The notes under the pieces were generated by a model. That model was given only the letters and a program-made list of their open reading frames with translations, did no database searches and was not told the DNA's origin. 64,000 bases of DNA from contig JAJEJU010000023.1 in assembly GCA_021390615.1 (NCBI GenBank), forward strand, positions 124,001-188,000, given 5' to 3'. Within the stretch, counting starts at the first letter, position 1. Every line of letters begins with the position of its first letter. The DNA is from Rhodanobacteraceae bacterium ZG21-1. GTDB taxonomy: Bacteria; Pseudomonadota; Gammaproteobacteria; Xanthomonadales; Rhodanobacteraceae. This document shows, one piece after another, positions 1-42,498 of this stretch. Position numbers and translations under genes: made by a program.

Positions 1-1173
1 CTCGTCGGGCGGGAAGCGGGCATGCTGCAGGCGATTGCCGGCCTGGTAGGCCTCGAAGGCCTCGTCATAGCGACCAAGGTCCTCGCGCATCTTGCCGAGC
101 GCGAACCAGTAGCGGATGCGCGCGCCATCGGGCAGCTCGGCCAGCCGCGGGGCCATCGCCTCGAAGCGCGGCGGCTCGGCATCGCCTTCGGCGAAGCTGC
201 GCAGCGGCGCGAGATTGCAGTAGGCCTCAAGAAAACCAGGATCGATCGCCAGCGTCGCCTCGAAGCACGCGCGCGCCTCGTCCAGGCGCCCCTGCTTGCG
301 GATCGAGCGGCCGAGGTTGTTGCAGGCTTCGGCGTAGTCCGGCCGCAGCTGCAGCGCGCGCCGATAGCTCTGCTCGGCATCGGCATGGCGCTCCTGCATC
401 AGCCACTGACCGCCCAGGTCGAAATGCACGCGCGCATAGCCGTCGTCGCAAGCCATCGCTTGCCGATAGCTGGCCTCCGCCTTCGCATAGCGTTGCTGGT
501 CGCGCAAGGCATTGCCGAGATTGGCGTGCGCCTCGGCATGCGCTGGCGCCAGCGCCAGCACACGGCGGAAGCTGGCTTCGGCCTCGGCCGGACGTCCCTG
601 CGCGTACAAGGCCACGCCCAGCGCCTGGTGTACGCGCGCGCTGCCTGCATAGGCGTTCAGGGCCAGGCGCAGCGCGGGTTCGGCCTCGGCATAGCGACCA
701 GCGCTGACCAGGGTGAAGCCCAGATTGGCCTGCGCCTCGCCGAACTCCGGGCGGAGCGCCAGCGCACGGCGATAGCTGTGCACAGCCTCCGCCAGTTGCT
801 CCAGCAGGACCAGGGCATTGCCCAGCTTGAAATGCGCGTCGGCATGCGCCGGACGCAACGCGACCGCGCGTCGGTAGCTCTCCGCGGCCTCGGCCGGCTG
901 CTGCGCGGACATCAGGCCTTCGCCCAGCGCGTAGTGCGCGGCAGCCTCCTGCGGCGCGGCGGCCACCGCCCGCCGGAACGCGGCGACCGCTTCGGCCGCA
1001 CGGCCCTGGCCGTGCAGCGAGGCGCCGAGCATGAACCAGGTGCGGCCGTGGGCCGGATCGCGTTCGAGCAAGCCGTGCGCCAGCACGTCGGCCTCCGCAT
1101 GGCGCTTCTGCGCGATCAGCCCGGCCAGGCTGTCGAGCTCCCGCTGCACCACGGCTTCGGCTTCGCTGGACAT
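1..1173 (-). CDS. TPR repeat protein, probably TPR-sulfotransferase (3' part outside window)
   Basis: The frame is open from an ATG at 1173 to the window edge, so the C-terminus is missing. The N-terminus reads MSSEAEAVVQRELDSLAGLI and is followed by about ten tetratricopeptide-like 34-residue repeats (patterns such as GRTWFMLGASLHGQGRAAEA and YWFALGKMREDLGRYDEA). The last visible residues, YQAGNRLQHARFPPDE, resemble the junction seen in TPR proteins that continue into a sulfotransferase domain, a common architecture in Xanthomonadales. That domain is not visible, so the sulfotransferase assignment is inference while the TPR call is direct. No signal peptide is seen, so it is probably cytoplasmic. 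It is transcribed away from the S53 peptidase gene, with a 507-bp divergent intergenic region between them. Confidence 0.8.
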   Translation of the reverse strand, partial: MSSEAEAVVQRELDSLAGLIAQKRHAEADVLAHGLLERDPAHGRTWFMLGASLHGQGRAAEAVAAFRRAVAAAPQEAAAHYALGEGLMSAQQPAEAAESYRRAVALRPAHADAHFKLGNALVLLEQLAEAVHSYRRALALRPEFGEAQANLGFTLVSAGRYAEAEPALRLALNAYAGSARVHQALGVALYAQGRPAEAEASFRRVLALAPAHAEAHANLGNALRDQQRYAKAEASYRQAMACDDGYARVHFDLGGQWLMQERHADAEQSYRRALQLRPDYAEACNNLGRSIRKQGRLDEARACFEATLAIDPGFLEAYCNLAPLRSFAEGDAEPPRFEAMAPRLAELPDGARIRYWFALGKMREDLGRYDEAFEAYQAGNRLQHARFPPDE

Positions 1174-1680
1174 GGCCTTCCTCGAGTGAATGTGCGTCGG
1201 TGCCGCGGCGGCGAAGCGCAACGCTTCATAGCGCAGACCGGCAGCGCCGCAATATCGCATGCGGCGTAGTGATCGGCGCCGCAGCAATAGCGCCTGTCAT
1301 TATCGGCTTCGCGAAATGCGAGGCAGCTTCCGATTCATGCTTGATAGGCATCACAGGCAAAACGGAAGCGCCGATTTTGCGCGTGAGTTAATCGATTCAC
1401 ATAACGTCGCAAATTTTCGCTATTTGCATGGCTGGCTTGTGACGCAATGCCATAAGCCGGAGTTTGTCGACGCAATTAATTGCGATCTTATTGCCACGCT
1501 GGATTATGCCCATTAAGAGAAGCGGGCCACGCCGGTATCAGCGGATCACAGCGGGGGATTCCACCCACACGGCACGAACGGGGACATCGTCATCGGCTCG
1601 GCCTGGCAACCACTGACATTCCACCGTGCCCAACCACATTCAAACCAGGCAAGCCGCCTGCGTTTTAGGGAGAGTTGATC
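1174..1680. other. Divergent intergenic region, relatively AT-rich in the middle
   Basis: No gene was recognised between the TPR gene and the S53 peptidase gene. The stretch 1300-1510 is clearly richer in A+T than its surroundings and should hold the promoters of both divergent genes. It contains the 14-bp palindrome at 1471-1484. No unambiguous -35/-10 pair was identified. Confidence 0.6.
1471..1484. promoter_or_regulatory. 14-bp perfect palindrome, possible operator
   Basis: CGCAATTAATTGCG is self-complementary over all 14 bases and lies in the AT-rich part of the divergent intergenic region, about 200 bp upstream of the S53 peptidase start. The location suits a dimeric regulator, but no regulator is identified. 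Confidence 0.3.
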
Positions 1681-3408
1681 ATGCGTTCGTCGTTCTCAGT
1701 CGTTGAACCGTCGTCGGCTTCGAAGCTGTCCCGCTGTAAACGCGCCCTGCCGGCGCTGCTCGTCGCCGCTGCGCTGGCGATGAATGCCCACGCCGGCACC
1801 GCGCCGGCCGGCGGTCTCCACCTGCTCAGCCAGGGTCACGTGCCTTCCGCCATCGCGGCGGGGCTGGCGCCCAGCGTGCAGGCCCTGAACACCTCCAAGC
1901 AGCTCAAGCTTGGCCTGGTGCTGCCGCTGCGCAACGAAGCCGACCTGGACAGCCTGCTCGGCCAGCTGTACGACCGCAGCAGCCCGCAGTACCACCACTA
2001 CCTCAGCTCGCAGCAGTTCACCGACCGCTTCGGGCCGACCCAGTCCGACTACGACAAGGTGGTGAGCTGGGCCAAGGCGCACAATCTGAAGGTCGTCTCG
2101 ACCGCGTCGAACCGCCACATCGTCGACGTGCAGGGTTCGGTGAGCGACGTCAACCGTGCGCTGCACCTGACCATGCGCCAGTACCAGCATCCCAGCGAGA
2201 ACCGCCTGTTCTTCGCGCCCGACCAGGAGCCCACCCTCGACCTGAGCGTGCCGCTGCTGCACATCAACGGCCTGGACAACTACGTGCGCCCCTATACGCA
2301 CATGGTGCGCCAGCCGCAGACCGCCGATGCGACCGTGCAGCGCGCGACCAAGGCCACCGGCTCTGGCCCGAGCGGCAACTTCCTGCCCAGCGACATCCGC
2401 GCCGCCTACTATGGCTCCGGTTCGCTGACCGGCAGCGGTCAGACCGCCGCGATCTTCTCCTACGACGGCTACCTGAGCAGCGACCTGACCCTGTACTACA
2501 AGGACACCGGCGCCAAGAACCCGGGCGTGCCGGTCTCCAACGTGCTGGTGAACGGCTATAACGGCGCCTGCACCGGCTCCGACTCGCGCTCCAGCTCGTG
2601 CAGCGACGGCGAGCAGATCCTCGACATCGCCAACCTGGCCGGCATGGCGCCGGGCCTGAAGCAGATCCTGTTCTACGAGGGCACCAGCGCGGGCGACATC
2701 CTCAACCAGATGGCCAGCGACAACAAAGCCTCGGTGATCACCTGCTCGTGGGGCGGCGGCGACTTCGGCAGCAGCGACGACGCCATTTACAAGGAATTCC
2801 AGGCGCAGGGCCAGACCTTCGTCAACGCCAGCGGCGACGCCGGCTCCTACACCACCAGCAACTGGGACGCGCCGTCGCTCGACCCGTACATCACCGACGT
2901 CGGCGCCACCGACCTCACCACCAAGAGCGCGGGTGGCGCGTGGTCCTCCGAGACCGCGTGGTCCGACAGCAGCGGCGGCTATCTGTCCAAGGCCGGCTAC
3001 TCGACGCCCGCCTACCAGCAGCTGGCCGGCGTGATCACCAGCACCAACAAGGGCTCGACCAAGTACCGCAACGATCCCGACATCGCGCTGGAAGGCAACT
3101 TCGACAACCCGACGGTGAGCGACGGCTCGATGGAGACCGGCGTGGGCGGCACCAGCTATGCAGCGCCCCGCCTGGCCGGCCTGATCGCGCTGGCCAACCA
3201 GCAGGCCGCGGCCAACGGCCAGGGCAACGTCGGCTTCCTCAACACGGCGCTGTACAACTTCGGCGTGGGTTCGAACTACCACACTTACTTCCACGACATC
3301 ACCAGCGGCAGCAACGGCGGCTTCAAGGCCGTGGCCGGCTACGACCTGGTGACCGGTTGGGGCAGCCCGATCGGGCCGGCCTTCATCACCGCCCTGCTGT
3401 CGCAGTAA
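1681..3408 (+). CDS. Secreted S53 family (sedolisin/pro-kumamolisin) peptidase
   Basis: A 575-residue secreted serine-carboxyl endopeptidase. After a basic N-terminus and a signal peptide (hydrophobic LPALLVAAALAMNAHA, cleavage near residue 38) come a pro-kumamolisin activation domain (about 45-200) and the S53 catalytic domain (about 220-575). Visible family residues, numbered from ATG 1681, are the Glu/Asp pair in DGEQILDIANL (E311, D315), the oxyanion Asp in NASGDAGS (D386), the nucleophile in GVGGTSYAAPRL (S492), and the C-terminal calcium-site region HDITSGSNGG...GYDLVTGWGSP. Sedolisins are usually active at acid pH; here the propeptide should be removed after export. ATG 1681 is preferred over the in-frame TTG at 1675 because AGGGAGA sits 7 bases before it. 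The gene is monocistronic, with a strong terminator downstream. Confidence 0.93.
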   Translation: MRSSFSVVEPSSASKLSRCKRALPALLVAAALAMNAHAGTAPAGGLHLLSQGHVPSAIAAGLAPSVQALNTSKQLKLGLVLPLRNEADLDSLLGQLYDRSSPQYHHYLSSQQFTDRFGPTQSDYDKVVSWAKAHNLKVVSTASNRHIVDVQGSVSDVNRALHLTMRQYQHPSENRLFFAPDQEPTLDLSVPLLHINGLDNYVRPYTHMVRQPQTADATVQRATKATGSGPSGNFLPSDIRAAYYGSGSLTGSGQTAAIFSYDGYLSSDLTLYYKDTGAKNPGVPVSNVLVNGYNGACTGSDSRSSSCSDGEQILDIANLAGMAPGLKQILFYEGTSAGDILNQMASDNKASVITCSWGGGDFGSSDDAIYKEFQAQGQTFVNASGDAGSYTTSNWDAPSLDPYITDVGATDLTTKSAGGAWSSETAWSDSSGGYLSKAGYSTPAYQQLAGVITSTNKGSTKYRNDPDIALEGNFDNPTVSDGSMETGVGGTSYAAPRLAGLIALANQQAAANGQGNVGFLNTALYNFGVGSNYHTYFHDITSGSNGGFKAVAGYDLVTGWGSPIGPAFITALLSQ

Positions 3409-3423
3409 GCATCGCCGTATCGG

Positions 3424-3458
3424 CCCCTTCCCCCGCTTGCGGGGGAAGGGGTTTTTTT
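3424..3458 (+). terminator. Rho-independent terminator of the S53 peptidase gene
   Basis: An 11-bp GC-rich stem (CCCCTTCCCCC with GGGGGAAGGGG, loop GCTTGC/C) is followed directly by seven T residues, 15 bp after the peptidase stop codon. This is a textbook intrinsic terminator. Confidence 0.92.
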
Positions 3459-3526
3459 ATGGGCTCGTGCCCGCTTGCAGGAATAGCTTCTGCTTAGCCC
3501 GCTCCCGCATGCAGAGATGGGGGCTT

Positions 3527-4747
3527 TTATGGCCCGGCGCCGCCACCGTGCGAGCCCGCACGCAGCGCAGCCAGGATGCGCTGGCCGGCGCGGCCGTCGG
3601 TGGGCAGCCCCGCGCGCTGGTCTTCCTGCACGATCGCCTCGCGGGTCTTGTCGCCGATCATGCCGTCGGGCTCGCCGATGTCGTGGCCGCGTGCTATCAG
3701 CAGACGCTGCAGTTCGCGCCGCTCGGCGCGCGAGGTGCCTGGATCGTCGGTAGGCCAGCGCGCCACCAGGCCGGCCTGGCCGCGCAGGCGATCGCTCAGC
3801 AGCGCAACCGCCAGGCTGTAGCTGATCGAGGCGTTGTAGGCGTAGATCGCATCAAAGTTGCGGAAGACCAGGAAGGCCGGCCCGTTCGCACCGGCCGGCA
3901 GCAGCAGGCCGGCCGGCGTATCGCTGTCCGCCAGGGCGCTGCCGTCGATGCGGCGCACGCCGTGCTCGCGCCAGTACGCCAGCGACTTCTTCGCCTCGCG
4001 TCCGCTGATCTTGCTGTCGAAATGCTCCGGCAGCTTGACCTCGTAGCCCCAGGGCTGGCCGCTCTGCCAGTGCGAGAGCTGCAGGTAGTGCGCGGTCGAG
4101 GCCAACGCATCGGGCACGCTGCCGATCAGGTCGCGGCGGCCGTCGCCGTCGAAGTCGACCGCCATTTTCTCGAAGATCGACGGCATGAACTGGGTGTGCC
4201 CGAAAGCGCCCGCCCAGGAACCGTTGAACTGCTCGGGGCGGATGTCGCCGCTCTGCAGGATGCGCAGCGCGGCGTAGAACTCGCCGCGGAAATACGCCTG
4301 GCGGCGGCCGATGCAGGACAGCGTGGCCAGCGACGGCACCAGCGGGCGCTTGCCGAACTGCCGCCCGTAATTGCTCTCCACGCCCCACACCGCCGTGACC
4401 GTGGCCGGATCGACGCCGTAGCGCTGCTGCACGTGCGCCAGCACGTCGCTCCATTGGCCAAGCATGGCCTTGCCGTCGTCGACGCGTTCCTGGTCGACCA
4501 GGCCGGACAGGTAGTCCCACACTGGCGTGCTGAATTCCGGCTGGTGGTTCAGCGCGTCGATCACGCTCATGTCCGGCACCAGCCCGGCGGTATAGCGCTG
4601 ATAGGCGGCAGCGCTGACGCCATGCTGCTCGGCGTCGGCTTCCAGCCCGCCGAGGCAGCGCTGGAACGCGGCCGTGTCCTGCGCTGCCGCAGGTATCGCC
4701 GCCAGCAGCAGCGCGCAGAACAGCAGCGGGCGATATGGCTTCGACAT
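3527..4747 (-). CDS. MltB-type lytic murein transglycosylase with peptidoglycan-binding domain
   Basis: A 406-residue periplasmic enzyme that cleaves the MurNAc-GlcNAc bond of peptidoglycan with 1,6-anhydro product formation. The signal peptide ends near AAIPAAAQD (residues 7-24). An SLT_2/MltB catalytic domain follows, with the catalytic Glu in AVWGVESNYGR (E124) and the family segment WAGAFGHTQFMPS (179-190). Residues about 335-400 (SRAERRELQRLLIARGHD..DGMIGDKTREAI) form a peptidoglycan-binding type 1 domain. ATG 4747 is preferred over upstream ATGs because GGAG lies 6 bases before it. The gene faces the S53 gene tail-to-tail and is divergent from rmuC. Confidence 0.92.
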   Translation of the reverse strand: MSKPYRPLLFCALLLAAIPAAAQDTAAFQRCLGGLEADAEQHGVSAAAYQRYTAGLVPDMSVIDALNHQPEFSTPVWDYLSGLVDQERVDDGKAMLGQWSDVLAHVQQRYGVDPATVTAVWGVESNYGRQFGKRPLVPSLATLSCIGRRQAYFRGEFYAALRILQSGDIRPEQFNGSWAGAFGHTQFMPSIFEKMAVDFDGDGRRDLIGSVPDALASTAHYLQLSHWQSGQPWGYEVKLPEHFDSKISGREAKKSLAYWREHGVRRIDGSALADSDTPAGLLLPAGANGPAFLVFRNFDAIYAYNASISYSLAVALLSDRLRGQAGLVARWPTDDPGTSRAERRELQRLLIARGHDIGEPDGMIGDKTREAIVQEDQRAGLPTDGRAGQRILAALRAGSHGGGAGP

Positions 4748-35784: not shown

Positions 35785-38700
35785 TCATGCCGCACTCCTC
35801 AACTCTTCCGCCAGCGCCGCCAAGCTGGCCGCCTTCGGCTTGACCAGCCAGAACTTGTACTGCAGCCCGCGGAAGTCGCGCAGGATCTGCCGACCCCAGG
35901 CGCTGCCGGTGTATTCGACATGCTTCAGCACCAGGCTGCGCAGATGGTGCATGTAGTGCTCCATGCTGTCGGTGGAGATGCGCAGGATGTCCACCAGCTC
36001 GTGGTTGTAGCAGTCGACGAAATCGCGCTCCAGGTCCAGCACGTAGGCGAAGCCGCCGGTCATGCCGGCGCCGAAGTTCAGGCCCACCTTGCCGAGCACC
36101 GCCACCACCCCGCCGGTCATGTATTCGCAGCAGTGGTCGCCGGCGCCTTCGATCACCGCCAGCGCGCCGGAGTTGCGTACCGCGAAGCGCTCGCCGGCGC
36201 GACCGGCCGCGTACAGCTCGCCGGCGGTGGCGCCGTACAGGCAGGTGTTGCCGATGATCGCCGCGTCCTGGCTGGCGTACGGCGCGTCGGCCGGCGGGCG
36301 CACCGCGATGCGGCCGCCGGCCATGCCTTTGCCGACGCCGTCGTTGGCCTCGCCGACCAGCTCGATGTGCACGCCGCCGGCGTTCCAGGCGCCCAGGCTC
36401 TGCCCGGCCGCGCCTTCCAGCCTCAGCACGATGGGCTGTTCGTCCATGCCGTGGTCGCCGTGCTGGCGCGCCACCTCGCCGGAGAGCCGCGCGCCGATCG
36501 CGCGGTCGGTGTTGGCGATGGCGTAGGCGAAGCTGCCGCCGCGCCTGTCGGCGATCGCCGCCGCGGCGTCGGCGGAAATCCGCGTCGCCAGCGCCGCCGG
36601 ATCGCGCATCGGATTACGCGCCAGCGTGCAGGCGAAATCCACGTCCGCGCCCAGCCCGCCGCCGTCGATCAGCGGCGCGAGATCGAGCTTGTGCTGCACC
36701 GGCGTGCCGCCTTCGAGCTGCTCCAGCAAGTCGCTGCGGCCGATGATCTCGCCCAGCGAGCGCACACCCAACTGCGCCAAGTGCGCGCGCAGGTCTTCGG
36801 CGACGAAGCGGAAGTAATTGGTCACCATCTCGGGCAGGCCGGTGAAGTGCTCCTTGCGCAGCACCGGATGCTGGGTGGCCACGCCGGTGGCGCAGTTGTT
36901 GAGATGGCAGATGCGCAGGTACTTGCAGCCCAGCGCCACCATCGGCGCGGTGCCGAAACCGAAGCTCTCGGCGCCGAGCAGGGCCGCCTTGAGCACGTCC
37001 AGCCCGGTCTTCAGGCCACCGTCGGTCTGCAGCCGCACGCGACCGCGCAGGTCGTTGCGGCGCAGGGTCTGCTGGGTCTCGGCCAGGCCCAGCTCCCACG
37101 GCGTGCCGGCGTACTTGATCGAGGTGAGCGGGCTGGCGCCGGTGCCGCCGTCGTGGCCGCTCACCGTGATCAGGTCGGCGCCGGCCTTCACCACGCCGGC
37201 CGCCACCGTGCCCACGCCGGCGTGCGAGACCAGCTTGACCGAGACCAGGGCCGCGGGATTGACCTCCTTGAGGTCGTGGATCAGCTCGGCCAGGTCCTCG
37301 ATCGAATAAATGTCATGGTGCGGCGGCGGCGAGATCAGGCCGATGCCCGGCTTGGCGTAGCGCAGCCGCGCGATGGTGGCGTCCACCTTGTGCCCGGGCA
37401 GCTGGCCGCCCTCGCCGGGCTTGGCGCCCTGCGCGATCTTGATCTGCAGCACCTCGGCGTTGACCAGATAGGCCGGGGTGACGCCGAAGCGACCCGAAGC
37501 GACCTGCTTGATCTTGGACATCTTCTCGGTGCCGTAGCGCGCCGGGTCCTCGCCGCCCTCGCCGGAATTGCTGCGCGCGCCGAGCCGGTTCATCGCGGTG
37601 GCCAGCGCCTCGTGCGCTTCCGGCGACAGCGCGCCCAGCGACATGCCGGCCGAATCGAAGCGGCGCAGGATTGCCTCGGCTGGTTCCACTTCGTCCAGCG
37701 GAATCGACGCACCCAGCGGCTTCACCCCGAGCAGGTCGCGCAGCGCCGAAGGCGGACGCTGGTCGACGTGGCGCGCATAGACCTGGTAGTCGCGCTGGCG
37801 GCCCGAGCGCACGGCGGCCTGCAGCGCGCCGATCACGTCGGGGTTGTACATGTGGTACTCGCCGCCGTGCATGAACTTGTAGAGGCCGCCGGCGCGCAGC
37901 GGCAGCGCCTCGTTCCAGGCCTCGGCGGCGAGCAGGCGCTGCTCGTGCTCCAGCTCGGCGAAGCCGGCGCCGCCGATGCGCGAGGGCGTGCCGGGGAAGC
38001 ACAGCTCGACCACCGCCGGCGCCAGCCCGACGATCTCGAACAGCTGCGCGCCGCGGTAGCCGGCGACGGTGGAGATGCCCATCTTGGAGAGGATCTTCAG
38101 CAGGCCCTTGCGGATGCCGCGGCGGTAGCTGCGGCCCAGCTCGGCGCGGTCGCCGGCGATGTGGCCCTCGCGGCCCAGCTCGAACAGGCTCTGGTAGGCC
38201 AGCCACGGATAGATCGCGGTGGCGCCGAAGCCGATCAGGCAGGCGAACTGGTGCGGGTCGCGCGGGGTGGCGGTCTCCACCACGATGTTGCACTGGCAGC
38301 GCAGGCCCTGCTCGATCAGCTGCGCGTGCACCGCGCCGGTGGCCAGCAGCGCGTGGATCGGCAGCCGTTCGTGGCTGGGATAGCGGTCGCTGAGGAAGAC
38401 CAGGGTGCTGCCGCCGCGCACCGACTGCGCCACCTCGTCGCACAGGCGGCGCAGCGCAGCTTCCAGCCCTTCGTCCGGGTCGTACATCAGGTCGAAGCGC
38501 GGCACCCCGGCGTACTGCGGGCGCGCCAGGATCTCGCGCAGCTTGCGCTGCGACAGGATCGGCGAGTTGATGATGATCTGCCGCGCGTTGTCCGGGCTCA
38601 GCTCGAACACATTGGCCTCAGGGCCGATCTGGGTGACCAGGGACATCACCAGCTTCTCGCGCAGCGGGTCGATCGGCGGATTGGTGACCTGGGCGAAGGC

Positions 38701-40230
38701 CTGGCGGAAGCGGTCGAACAGCGGGCGCACCTGGCGCGACATCGCCGCGATCGGGGTGTCGTCGCCCATCGAACCGGTGGCCTCGGCCTCCAGCTCGGCG
38801 ATCACCTTGAGCACCGACTCGCGTTCCTCGCGCGACAGCCCGTACAGCTTCTGGTAGCGACGCAGCTCGTCGGCCGGCAGCGGCTCGGCCGCCAGCGAGG
38901 GATCGATCAGATCCGATTCTAGATAACTCACGCCGGCGCGCAGCCAGTCGCGGAACGGCGCGCGGCGGCGGTTGATCTCGTCGATGTCGGCATCGCGCAG
39001 CAGGCGCCGCGCGGCGAAATCCACCGCGATCATCTCGCCCGGGGCCAGCCGCCCCTTGGCCACCACCTGGGCCGAGGGCACGTCCCACAGGCCGGCCTCG
39101 GAAGCGACGATCAGGTGGTTGTCCTGCGACAGCGCCCAGCGCGCCGGACGCAGACCGTTGCGGTCCAGCGTGCAGGCGGCATAGCGGCCGTCGCACATCA
39201 CCAGGCCGGCCGGGCCGTCCCAGGGTTCGCTGTGCAGGGCGTAGTACTCGTAGAAGGCGGCCAGGTCTTCGTCGATGTTCTCGCGCGCGGCGAACGCCGG
39301 CGGCACCAGCACGCGCATCGCCGCCAGCAGGTCGAGGCCGCCGGCCAGTAGCACCTCCAGCGCGTTGTCCAGGCTCTCCGAATCAGAGCCCTGCTGGCGC
39401 ACCAGCGGGCCGAGGTCGGACAGCTCCAGCAGCGGCGTGCGCAGGATGCTTTCGCGCGACTGCATCCAGCGCCGGTTGGCGCGGATGGTGTTGATCTCGC
39501 CGTTGTGGGCGAGCAGGCGGAACGGCTGGGCCAGCCGCCACTGCGGCAAGGTATTGGTGGAGAAGCGCTGGTGGAACACCACCGCGTCGGCGACCAGGGC
39601 CGGATGCGCCAGGTCCGCATACACCTCGCGCAGGCGGCCCGGCGCGGCCATCGCCTTGTAGCCGATCACTTCCGGTGCCAGCGTCACCACGTAGAAATGC
39701 GCGTCGTCGCGCAGGGCGTGCTCGGCGCGCCGGCGCGCGCGGAACAGCGCGCGCTCGAAGGCGCCCTCGCTCATCCCGGCGGCGGCATCGACGAAAATCT
39801 GGCGCACCTGCGGCTGCGCCGCCGCGGCCAGCGGGCCGCAGGCCTCAGCGTCCACCGGCACCGCGCGCCAGCCGGCCACCGTCACGCCTTCCTCGGCCAG
39901 CAGCTGTTCGAGCTGCGCAACCGCAGCCTCGCCGCCGGCCGGATCGAGGAACACCAGGCCGGCCGCGAAGTGCTCCGCCAGCGCGATCGAGGCCTCGGCG
40001 GCCAGCGCGCGCAGCCAGGCCTGCGGCCGGTGGATCAGCACGCCGCAGCCGTCGCCGCTGACGCCGTCGGCATTCACGCCGCCGCGGTGCGAAAGCTTGG
40101 CCAGCGCCGCGAAGGCCGTATCCACCACCCAGGCGCTGGCATGCCCGTCGATCTGCGCGACCAGGCCGAAGCCACAGCTGTCGTGCTCGAAACTGGCGTC
40201 GTACAAGCCTGGGCTAGCCGGGTGCTTCAC
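35785..40230 (-). CDS. gltB: Glutamate synthase large subunit
   Basis: A 1481-residue alpha subunit of glutamate synthase (GOGAT), which transfers ammonia from glutamine to 2-oxoglutarate. The class II amidotransferase domain begins at the conserved Cys in FEHDSCGFGLVAQ, close to the N-terminus after a short propeptide. The central domain and the FMN-binding synthase domain (MSLGALSPEAHEAL, SNSGEGGEDPARYG, VSGHDGGTGASPLTSIKYAG) follow. Fe-S cysteines are in GCKYLRICHLNNCATG, and a C-terminal GXGXG domain ends the protein. GTG 40230 is preferred as the start: GAGGAG lies 6 bases before it, while the in-frame ATG at 40269 lacks such support. It probably forms an operon with gltD. Confidence 0.95.
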   Translation of the reverse strand: MKHPASPGLYDASFEHDSCGFGLVAQIDGHASAWVVDTAFAALAKLSHRGGVNADGVSGDGCGVLIHRPQAWLRALAAEASIALAEHFAAGLVFLDPAGGEAAVAQLEQLLAEEGVTVAGWRAVPVDAEACGPLAAAAQPQVRQIFVDAAAGMSEGAFERALFRARRRAEHALRDDAHFYVVTLAPEVIGYKAMAAPGRLREVYADLAHPALVADAVVFHQRFSTNTLPQWRLAQPFRLLAHNGEINTIRANRRWMQSRESILRTPLLELSDLGPLVRQQGSDSESLDNALEVLLAGGLDLLAAMRVLVPPAFAARENIDEDLAAFYEYYALHSEPWDGPAGLVMCDGRYAACTLDRNGLRPARWALSQDNHLIVASEAGLWDVPSAQVVAKGRLAPGEMIAVDFAARRLLRDADIDEINRRRAPFRDWLRAGVSYLESDLIDPSLAAEPLPADELRRYQKLYGLSREERESVLKVIAELEAEATGSMGDDTPIAAMSRQVRPLFDRFRQAFAQVTNPPIDPLREKLVMSLVTQIGPEANVFELSPDNARQIIINSPILSQRKLREILARPQYAGVPRFDLMYDPDEGLEAALRRLCDEVAQSVRGGSTLVFLSDRYPSHERLPIHALLATGAVHAQLIEQGLRCQCNIVVETATPRDPHQFACLIGFGATAIYPWLAYQSLFELGREGHIAGDRAELGRSYRRGIRKGLLKILSKMGISTVAGYRGAQLFEIVGLAPAVVELCFPGTPSRIGGAGFAELEHEQRLLAAEAWNEALPLRAGGLYKFMHGGEYHMYNPDVIGALQAAVRSGRQRDYQVYARHVDQRPPSALRDLLGVKPLGASIPLDEVEPAEAILRRFDSAGMSLGALSPEAHEALATAMNRLGARSNSGEGGEDPARYGTEKMSKIKQVASGRFGVTPAYLVNAEVLQIKIAQGAKPGEGGQLPGHKVDATIARLRYAKPGIGLISPPPHHDIYSIEDLAELIHDLKEVNPAALVSVKLVSHAGVGTVAAGVVKAGADLITVSGHDGGTGASPLTSIKYAGTPWELGLAETQQTLRRNDLRGRVRLQTDGGLKTGLDVLKAALLGAESFGFGTAPMVALGCKYLRICHLNNCATGVATQHPVLRKEHFTGLPEMVTNYFRFVAEDLRAHLAQLGVRSLGEIIGRSDLLEQLEGGTPVQHKLDLAPLIDGGGLGADVDFACTLARNPMRDPAALATRISADAAAAIADRRGGSFAYAIANTDRAIGARLSGEVARQHGDHGMDEQPIVLRLEGAAGQSLGAWNAGGVHIELVGEANDGVGKGMAGGRIAVRPPADAPYASQDAAIIGNTCLYGATAGELYAAGRAGERFAVRNSGALAVIEGAGDHCCEYMTGGVVAVLGKVGLNFGAGMTGGFAYVLDLERDFVDCYNHELVDILRISTDSMEHYMHHLRSLVLKHVEYTGSAWGRQILRDFRGLQYKFWLVKPKAASLAALAEELRSAA

Positions 40231-40314
40231 TACGGTCTCCTCGCTATGGATTCGCTGGGGCGCAGGCAACCTGCCGCCATGGTCGGCAGCGCATTTCGCG
40301 ATGGTTGCGCCCCG

Positions 40315-40729: not shown

Positions 40730-41818
40730 TCAGCTTTCGTAGACCAGCGCGGGATTCGCTGCGCGCGGCGCCGCCAGCAGGTGCCGGTAGCGCTCGCTGC
40801 GTACGTAAGTGGCGAAGCGCACATCGGCCACGGCGTCGAGCGCGTAGTCGCGGCGGCCGCTGGCCAGCATCGAGGTCATCGCGCGCAGCAGCGGCAGCTG
40901 GGGCAGCAGTTCCTCGACGAACAGGAACTGGCCCTGCTGGTTGACCTCCAGGAAATACATCTCACCCGCGTGGTCGACCACCAAGTCGATGCAGCCGAGC
41001 ACCAGGTCCAGCCGCGCCATCAAGGCGCGCAGCCGGGCCTCCACCGCAACAGGAAGCTCGATCGGTTCGGCCAGCAGATCCTCGTCGCGGATATGCGGAC
41101 GCCAGTCCACATAGGCGCCGCCGCCACGACGCAGCAGGCGCACCGGAAACAGGCGGTCGCCGATCACGCTGACGCGCACGTCGTAGGCCTTGTCGATATA
41201 GCGCTGGTAAATGCCCGGGCACACGGCGATGGCCGCCTCGGGCAGCTCGGACTGCGCGTCGAGCAGCACCACGTCGCTGCTGCGCAGCTCGCCGGAGGAA
41301 CGGCTTTGCCACATATAGGTGTGGAACTGCTTGAAGACCAGGCGCCCGCAACGCCGCAGCAGGGCGCGTACCTCGGCCGCGTCGTTGCTGGCGATCGCCT
41401 CGGGAAAGCGCAGGCCGACCGCATGCGCCGCGCGCAGCTGCACCCATTTGTTCTCGGCGGCTTCCGCCGCGGCGGGCCGATTCACCCACAAGGCGTCGAC
41501 GAAGCTTTGTTCCAGCGCCAGCGCATTGCTCTGGAAACCCTGCCATTGCCTCGCCGCGAACTCGCGATCCTCGGGCATGGTCGCTGCCGCGCCGGGCAGC
41601 TCGGGCGCGCGGTGCCATACCGCACCGATCCGGCTCAGGTCGCAGGCATTGCTATGCGCGCGGATGCCGTCTGCGTCGGCCATCAGGCTGCCACGCGCCT
41701 GCGCGCCCAGCCGGGTCGAAGGCGTCCACAGCGCCTCGACACCGCTGGCTTCTAGCGCCCAGGCGATCGCTCCCGCATGGGCATCCCCGGTCGGGGCGAA
41801 TATCAGCACCTGCTGCAT
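40730..41818 (-). CDS. MvdC/MvdD-like ATP-grasp ligase (candidate graspetide maturase)
   Basis: A 362-residue ATP-grasp enzyme of the type that forms ester or amide cross-links in ribosomal peptides. Features shared with that family are VLIFAPTGDAHAGAIAWALE at the start, the WVNRPAAAEAAENKWVQLRA segment (111-130), K163 in LVFKQFHTYMWQ, the Y-D-x-R motif in CPGIYQRYIDKAYDVRVSVI (D213, R215), and the metal/ATP site GCIDLVVD plus FLEVNQQGQFLF (D278, E291, N293). AAGGA 5 bases before ATG 41818 is a good ribosome-binding site. It lies 100 bp downstream of a 58-codon peptide gene on the same strand, the usual order precursor then ligase. RimK/glutathione-synthase-like activity on another substrate is the alternative. 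Confidence 0.85.
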   Translation of the reverse strand: MQQVLIFAPTGDAHAGAIAWALEASGVEALWTPSTRLGAQARGSLMADADGIRAHSNACDLSRIGAVWHRAPELPGAAATMPEDREFAARQWQGFQSNALALEQSFVDALWVNRPAAAEAAENKWVQLRAAHAVGLRFPEAIASNDAAEVRALLRRCGRLVFKQFHTYMWQSRSSGELRSSDVVLLDAQSELPEAAIAVCPGIYQRYIDKAYDVRVSVIGDRLFPVRLLRRGGGAYVDWRPHIRDEDLLAEPIELPVAVEARLRALMARLDLVLGCIDLVVDHAGEMYFLEVNQQGQFLFVEELLPQLPLLRAMTSMLASGRRDYALDAVADVRFATYVRSERYRHLLAAPRAANPALVYES

Positions 41819-41838
41819 GGCGATCCTTCCCTGCCTGG

Positions 41839-41865
41839 AATGGCAAGGCCGACAGCCTTGCCATT
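41839..41865. promoter_or_regulatory. Perfect 11-bp hairpin between peptide gene and ATP-grasp gene
   Basis: AATGGCAAGGC (41839-41849) pairs with GCCTTGCCATT (41855-41865) around a 5-base loop. In the minus-strand transcript it lies between the peptide stop and the ligase ribosome-binding site. There is no T tract, so partial termination or protection of the upstream mRNA from 3' decay would each fit. Confidence 0.6.
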
Positions 41866-41917
41866 CGTTGATCGACCGCTGCCGCGGAGCGCGTGCCCCG
41901 TCGGCATTCGGATCATC

Positions 41918-42094
41918 TCAATGCCCGCCCTCGATACACGCCGTGCCGCAGAGCGTGATGAAGGTGTGGTTGCTTTCCTCGGACGCATCGACGCCCAGCT
42001 TCTGCAGCTCGTCGGCGGTGACCAGGCGCGCCGCCATGCGAGCGAACGGGCGGACGGCTTCTTCGTTCAAACCCACTTCTGTCAGCTGTTTCAT
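41918..42094 (-). CDS. Candidate RiPP (graspetide-type) precursor peptide, 58 aa
   Basis: A 58-codon gene starting at ATG 42094 with GAGGTG four bases upstream. The product has a soluble helical leader (MKQLTEVGLNEEAVRPFARM, then ARLVTADELQKLGVDASEE) and a C-terminal segment SNHTFITLCGTACIEGGH. The tail offers Ser/Thr nucleophiles (S38, S41, T44, T47, T51) and acids (D36, E39, E40, E55) for side-chain cross-links, plus two Cys (C49, C53). The MvdC/D-like ligase follows on the same strand. No known graspetide core motif was recognised, so class membership is inferred from context. Alternatives are a small regulator or a spurious frame, which the good ribosome-binding site and context argue against. 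Confidence 0.65.
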   Translation of the reverse strand: MKQLTEVGLNEEAVRPFARMAARLVTADELQKLGVDASEESNHTFITLCGTACIEGGH

Positions 42095-42498
42095 GCTTCA
42101 CCTCGGTTGGTTTGGATGACGGGCATTTGGCCGCCCCGCCTGCGGCTTGAACCGGATGGCGCGCATCCGCATGCCGCCGCTCGCGATGAGCTGCGGAAAG
42201 GCGGGTGTGCAGTCGGATGCTTCAGCGAGACCTCTCCTGATTCCTTGGATCGGGCGCGACGACGGAACCTTGGATCGGCCGTGCTGCCGCAGGCTATTGC
42301 GCCAGCGCATGACGCGCTCCCGCGCTGGCAGGTGCTCTTTCTAAACCTGGCCGGAAATCCGAAAGGGATACGGGTTCACGTTTCGCTTCGCACCTCCATG
42401 CGATCCGGCATGCGTTCACCTGGCGTGCGGTCGAGCGGCAAGCAGCGCCGTGCCGGCGCGGCTCGCCGCCGTGCGCCGGCTCAGTGATAATCGTCGGC
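42095..42498. other. Divergent intergenic region (peptide gene / envC)
   Basis: These 404 bp should contain the promoters of the peptide-ATP-grasp unit and of envC. No second precursor-like frame with a ribosome-binding site was found, and no clear promoter was identified. Confidence 0.5.

Follow-up and report, generated by a model that had tools for sequence, protein, structure and literature searches.

A predicted stand-alone two-gene graspetide-type cassette with an acid-poor, cysteine-bearing core in Rhodanobacteraceae

The locus described here lies on the minus strand of a 64,000-nucleotide stretch of DNA from Rhodanobacteraceae bacterium ZG21-1 (contig JAJEJU010000023.1 of assembly GCA_021390615.1; hereafter the window) and is a real graspetide-type locus, graspetides being an established class of ring peptides. 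Most probably it is a stand-alone two-gene cassette, in which a precursor docks through its leader on an ATP-grasp ligase, one ring is formed, a hairpin between the genes controls the ratio of their products and processing falls to a protease that is not encoded alongside. As judged from sequence, the precursor assignment is solid and the ligase assignment strong, and a side-chain ester or amide would be the expected product of such a predicted graspetide pair. The features of the locus are as follows.

42099..42104, minus strand: GAGGTG, the likely ribosome-binding site of the precursor gene, read from the sequence
41918..42094, minus strand: gene for the predicted 58-aa graspetide-type precursor (ATG at 42094, TGA at 41918), from the open reading frame and the leader profile
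Within 41918..42094, minus strand: precursor parts, namely the leader motif R15-P-F-A-R19 and a putative core region at about residues 43-58, HTFITLCGTACIEGGH
41838..41866, minus strand: intercistronic hairpin with a 12-bp perfect stem, a 5-nt loop and no T run behind it, from the fold score and homologous spacers
40730..41818, minus strand: gene for the predicted 362-aa ATP-grasp graspetide synthetase (ATG at 41818), from matches to TIGR04187, MvdC and MvdD, PDB matches and conserved residues

The precursor stop codon is separated from the ligase ATG by 99 nt, and both genes are read from the minus strand. An earlier note on this DNA had described a 58-codon frame with a good ribosome-binding site ahead of a same-strand ATP-grasp gene; indeed, both open reading frames are present and GAGGTG precedes the first ATG. 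A search of Rfam gave no match within the window.

The 58-codon frame, whose homologues the earlier note had suggested seeking, is conserved next to homologous ligases. A small ORF carrying the leader motif was found upstream of 45 of the 45 intact ligases examined at an identity of at least 39% (43 loci with aligned peptides, together with L065 and L066, which were checked for the leader motif and a transporter only). These ORFs span some 50-60 codons (one has 85) and share the leader R-[PAT]-[FLM]-[AG]-[RH]. Moreover, a profile built from the peptides of 42 relatives, with that of the window excluded, gave the window ORF an E-value of 1.3e-9 in a search of the 549 ORFs in the window, where the runner-up scored 0.2. 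In leave-one-out scoring the window peptide came eighth from the bottom of 43, and by its sequence it is best described as a divergent but ordinary family member. When the whole genome was searched with a 21-row profile (21 of the 43 peptides), three matches were obtained, one beside each of three close ligases, with nothing further at E-values under 1; the profile contains the genome's own three peptides, so that only the absence of extra matches is informative. The window leader fits the rule Phhx(1,2)h set out in PMC8939145. Nine precursors, eight of this family and one from the distant cluster L004, gave nothing above cut-off in a Pfam/NCBIfam scan, and these libraries would therefore not name such peptides.

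Some rows were dropped from these comparisons: L006 and L007 duplicate L008 and L011, the L031 precursor is identical to that of L032, and L005/L062 (1501-1821) is only a piece of a ligase, with 61% identity across residues 242-348, and probably a decayed copy. L055 and L057 were retained despite odd tails, and peptides missed by the first motif pattern were picked by eye from a wider ORF list. Ten ligases below 39% identity (L004, L034-L036 and L046-L051) were excluded from the precursor counts; several of them have other types of small ORF upstream. At L065 a single ligase is preceded by two GG-type precursor ORFs.

The window core, FITLCGTACIEGGH, is unusual in composition. After F-I-T it reads LCGTACIEGGH, where E55 is the only acid and two Cys accompany one more Thr; the residues T47, C49, T51, C53 and E55 alternate. 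Nineteen of the 43 peptides have F-[LI]-T; only the window peptide and that of L010, a locus in genome G078 of the same family, have one acid after it, against two to four in the remaining 17. Over the last 16 residues, a single acid occurs only in the window peptide and in the odd L055 among the 43 peptides, six of which carry Cys in the tail. The earlier remark that the tail has few acids and two Cys (C49 and C53) is thus borne out. The accompanying proposal that the tail is the core stands as regards its unusual character, but the core may be longer than that tail, with D36, E39 and E40 directly upstream. The further idea of a new subclass is borne out only in part: the acid-poor core is set apart from 17 of the 19 F-[LI]-T peptides, but no second copy of it was found. 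The genus is represented by one genome among those searched. By eye, the core fits none of the microviridin, plesiocin and thuringinin types, and we take it to be unlike that of microviridin in particular. A frameshift within the core was considered and rejected, as the two other frames (ORFs 41803-41988 and 41913-42101) yield no acid-rich tail. No core motif matching that of the window appears in the sections examined of PMC8939145 and PMC13097080, whose consensus tables lie in figures and supplements; the core motif groups in the latter are numbered up to group 43. The tail does contain the donors and acceptor that a graspetide requires, T44, T47 and T51 together with E55, which is the minimum for one linkage. 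The simplest product predicted from the window core would be one macrolactone with one ring.

The shortage of acids could also have arisen by decay. A stop codon may have appeared inside a longer, acid-rich core, in which case the present, shortened peptide would be modified poorly or not at all. Read-through of the precursor TGA (41897-41917) gives DDPNADG, which brings three acids within eight residues. None of the other read-throughs, among 36 that reach eight residues or more, has as many, the next-highest two having two acids each. The deficit of acids past F-I-T relative to 17 of the 19 peptides with F-[LI]-T points the same way, as does the ligase fragment elsewhere in the genome, which suggests that copies decay. 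However, the window ligase seems intact, as does the leader, a precursor of 58 aa is of ordinary size in this family, and L010, from the same ligase group, likewise has one acid after F-L-T. In addition, a single extreme among 36 carries little weight, and the read-through of L010 itself has two acids. Decay of the core is considered unlikely but is a serious alternative.

Another reading takes the upstream acids D36, E39 and E40 as the acceptors, so that the acid would precede the nucleophile and up to several rings could form. Both the window peptide and that of L010 do have acids just ahead of F-[IL]-T (E39/E40 in the former, the E of NSKEANFLT in the latter). In the remainder of the alignment, however, the same positions look like leader or linker, and in well-known graspetides the nucleophiles come before the acids. 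This arrangement is improbable. An equally doubtful variant is a thiolactone graspetide, in which C49 or C53 rather than Thr would be joined to Glu55. If the alternating stretch were extended, these cysteines would share a face with Thr and Glu, and PMC13097080 describes graspetide synthetases as able to make non-native thioesters. Against this, the L010 tail is without Cys, a C49-C53 disulfide is simpler, and the literature on graspetides, cysteine and thioesters, as far as its accessible text goes, yielded only work on aspartimide by-products.

The spacer between the two genes folds with a z score of -4.3, and the 11-bp core of its stem occurs at one place in the genome. Of the 41 spacers that reach 40 nt, 25 contain a perfect stem of at least 8 bp, as against 14 of 820 stretches inside ligases and 2 of 41 stretches upstream of precursors; the spacers of L055 and L057 fall short of 40 nt and were not counted, and the statistics ignore the kinship of the loci. 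For perfect stems of at least 10 bp the corresponding counts were 16/41, 0/820 and 0/41. Paired changes between related spacers were also apparent by eye, with A-T for T-A in L030 versus L044 and A-T for G-C in L052 versus L056. An intrinsic terminator at the window hairpin was rejected, as there is no T run behind it; some homologous spacers do have one (L024 and L054). We infer that the hairpin sets the level of precursor relative to that of enzyme.

The cassette is followed downstream by gltB (35785-40269). Upstream, and divergent from it, lie an M23 peptidase gene and an S41 peptidase gene, which we take to be envC and ctpA, and then genes for a phosphopantetheinyl transferase and TatC. 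The earlier note had stated that no protease or transporter gene is adjacent. The transporter part holds, in that no C39 peptidase/ABC gene was found next to the cassette in the flanks examined; the protease part needs qualifying, as on the opposite strand the M23 and S41 genes begin at distances of about 0.4 and 1.7 kb. These two genes are probably housekeeping genes rather than maturases. In a search of 30 relatives that returned 19 loci, gltB divergently adjoins the M23 gene with no ligase between them in five, the other 14 showing no gltB in the stretch examined; a role of M23 or S41 as maturase was rejected on this ground, and the cassette looks like an insertion.

The genome, of 5.5 Mb, carries its cassettes at gltB/envC, infC/rpmI and yfiH/clpB. 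In the paralogue L002 (549-3349) the pair lies between the genes for IF-3 and L35-L20, in the same direction, as it does in L037 of Dyella acidiphila (1098-3863). L003 sits between a laccase-domain gene (Pfam Cu-oxidase_4), presumably yfiH, and the gene for ClpB. Comparison of flanks revealed common neighbours for some near relatives only (e.g. L018/L023, L017/L040 and L025/L026), most cassettes having none. Relatives include Oleiagrimonas soli and Dyella acidiphila; NCBI assigns Oleiagrimonas to Rhodanobacteraceae, Lysobacterales. Ligase matches at an E-value of 1e-3 or better occur in 47 of 233 family genomes and in 71 of 398 genomes of an order sample that overlaps the family set in many genomes; at a strict E of 1e-60, only the window's own genome of the 369 in a class sample was matched. 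Some long open frames of 1028-1060 aa also contain ligase matches (G456:C74, G450:C18 and G460:C1:1815868), and these may be fusions or GC-rich long frames. A second, distant graspetide cluster lies elsewhere in the genome (L061, about 3357-7600 on contig C18), with a C39-ABC gene, a precursor ending in TPTSTTITSGGNVCHDSDDSDGTVSKCK and a ligase of 32% identity.

The Rhodanobacteraceae branch consists of stand-alone two-gene cassettes with no C39-ABC gene beside them. A C39-ABC query taken from the genome's own distant cluster (L004/L061) matched 15 of 59 loci within flanks of about 1.5-2 kb (4 kb for two loci), namely L052-L054, L056, L065 and L066, and the distant L004, L034-L036, L046-L049 and L051. 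At L050 there is no C39 match inside the flank, but a C39 gene lies just past its edge. The genome's two C39 matches are on contigs C14 and C18, and the window is on C16. Across this genome and 25 others, no C39 gene was found within 30 kb of any stand-alone cassette on the same contig, the nearest being about 35 kb away in G202, within the limits set by contig ends. Four of the 43 peptides have an adjacent transporter, and all four have a GG-type junction. Among the 39 loci without a C39-ABC match, nine show one of the doublets GG, GA and GS in the junction stretch and 30 show none; the window peptide is without any of these doublets and so is not of the double-glycine type. When 25 of the 26 other family carriers were surveyed (G114, 80% complete, was omitted, as were G251 and G334 of another family), 24 had some C39 match. 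Nine had no match in a frame of at least 700 aa, the length of the transporter (G142, G118, G146, G080, G143, G074, G177, G161 and G083, with no match at all in G143), although draft contigs could shorten such frames. By these counts, the cassettes do not seem to need a C39-ABC transporter as a rule.

Taken in order, the proposed pathway would begin with docking of the N-terminal leader helix of the precursor, around RPFARMAARLVT, on the ATP-grasp ligase. At the expense of ATP, the ligase would then phosphorylate a carboxylate of the core, in the simplest case that of Glu55, and attack by the hydroxyl of Thr47 or Thr51 would give one macrolactone with the loss of 18 Da. C49 and C53 may pair in a disulfide or act as competing nucleophiles. 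The intercistronic hairpin should hold precursor mRNA above ligase mRNA, and the leader would be removed by a protease encoded elsewhere rather than by an adjacent C39 transporter. By weak analogy with known graspetides, the product might be a protease-inhibitor-like or signalling peptide. In a bolder and rather unlikely extension, the branch would be a family of wandering, transporter-free cassettes that become inserted among housekeeping genes, even within an infC-rpmI-rplT operon, and exchange their cores but not their leader; the window cassette would then make a single-ring Thr/Cys lactone or thiolactone that acts, unexported, inside its producer. The branch is compact and testable: it combines a single leader type with many cores, has no export gene alongside and sits in housekeeping neighbourhoods. 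It constitutes a natural experiment in the core drift that a graspetide synthetase tolerates, and it raises questions about the processing of the peptides, about their site of action and about whether cores with one acid and Cys give genuine products.

The ligase matches TIGR04187 (SAV_5884-type; E 3e-53), MvdC (2e-37) and MvdD (1e-31) across most of its length. These are its best named matches, with scores below each curated cut-off (180.9 of 350, 128.8 of 425 and 110.3 of 475 bits, respectively), and a Pfam scan of the ligase gave nothing above cut-off. Its best PDB relatives are 5ig9 and 5ig8 (3e-20), followed by 7m4s, 7mgv and 9bou. Family-conserved residues such as K163, D278, E291 and N293 are kept, and A71 and S217 are the only departures of the window ligase from the alignment columns that are at least 93% conserved among 45 ligases. 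The segments AENKWVQLRA, YDVRV and FLEVNQQGQ, from which an MvdC/MvdD-like enzyme had first been proposed, are all present in the 362 residues, and that proposal is upheld by the profile searches, in which the protein scores as a graspetide maturase with RimK far behind. An AlphaFold model of the ligase was discarded (pLDDT 40). An ATP-grasp enzyme, RimK-like or other, that acts on a different substrate beside an incidental small ORF would account for the weak RimK-family match (E 8e-7) but is most implausible, and RimK-like identity was ruled out, since TIGR04187 and MvdC surpass that E-value by about 46 and 30 orders of magnitude and the small ORF is kept beside 45 of 45 related ligases.

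When the ligase tree is read against the peptides, core types are seen to track ligase clades. A clade of 14 ligases has F-[LI]-[TS]-x-x-T cores that continue into EPE; one of five has HF[LM]TxIT cores that end in LDYD plus two more residues; and another of five, which includes the paralogue L003, has SG followed by D[WL]PD cores. In the f2 clade, GG is followed by TTHATGPNGDDP cores in four aligned members, and the L002 and L037 cores contain RIGTTTG. The window ligase groups with those of L010, L002 and L037 (99/96), with weak internal order (86/19). L010 resembles the window in this grouping, in DELxKL, in the acids before F-[IL]-T and in the single acid after it, but differs in its core, NFLTITIYERGLN, which has no Cys, and in its long branch. 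The order relatives L052-L054 and L056 share the leader type of the window, whereas they have a GG motif, an adjacent C39-ABC gene and the f2-type cores; the window has neither GG nor C39-ABC.

Among known systems, the solved ligases 5ig9 and 5ig8, which are among the closest sequence relatives of the window ligase, are named MdnC and MdnB in PMC10452190. No graspetide literature naming Xanthomonadales or Luteibacter was found in the accessible texts, and Rhodanobacter and Dyella were named only in PMC9576775, where the Dyella passages concern a lanthipeptide; full graspetide lists lie in supplements, and the branch may be listed there. Sections of PMC8939145 describe Xanthomonas/Lysobacter graspetide precursors of clusters 70, 75 and 859 with similar leaders and differing cores, and for Lysobacter capsici Gra-8, of group 19, up to three dehydrations were seen (PMC9576775). 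Microviridins, plesiocin and pre-fuscimiditide share with the window the combination of leader, core and ATP-grasp ligase as described in PMC13097080 and PMC12291112. Three rings are given there for microviridins and two esters for pre-fuscimiditide, whereas the window tail, with one acid after F-I-T, would allow one linkage.
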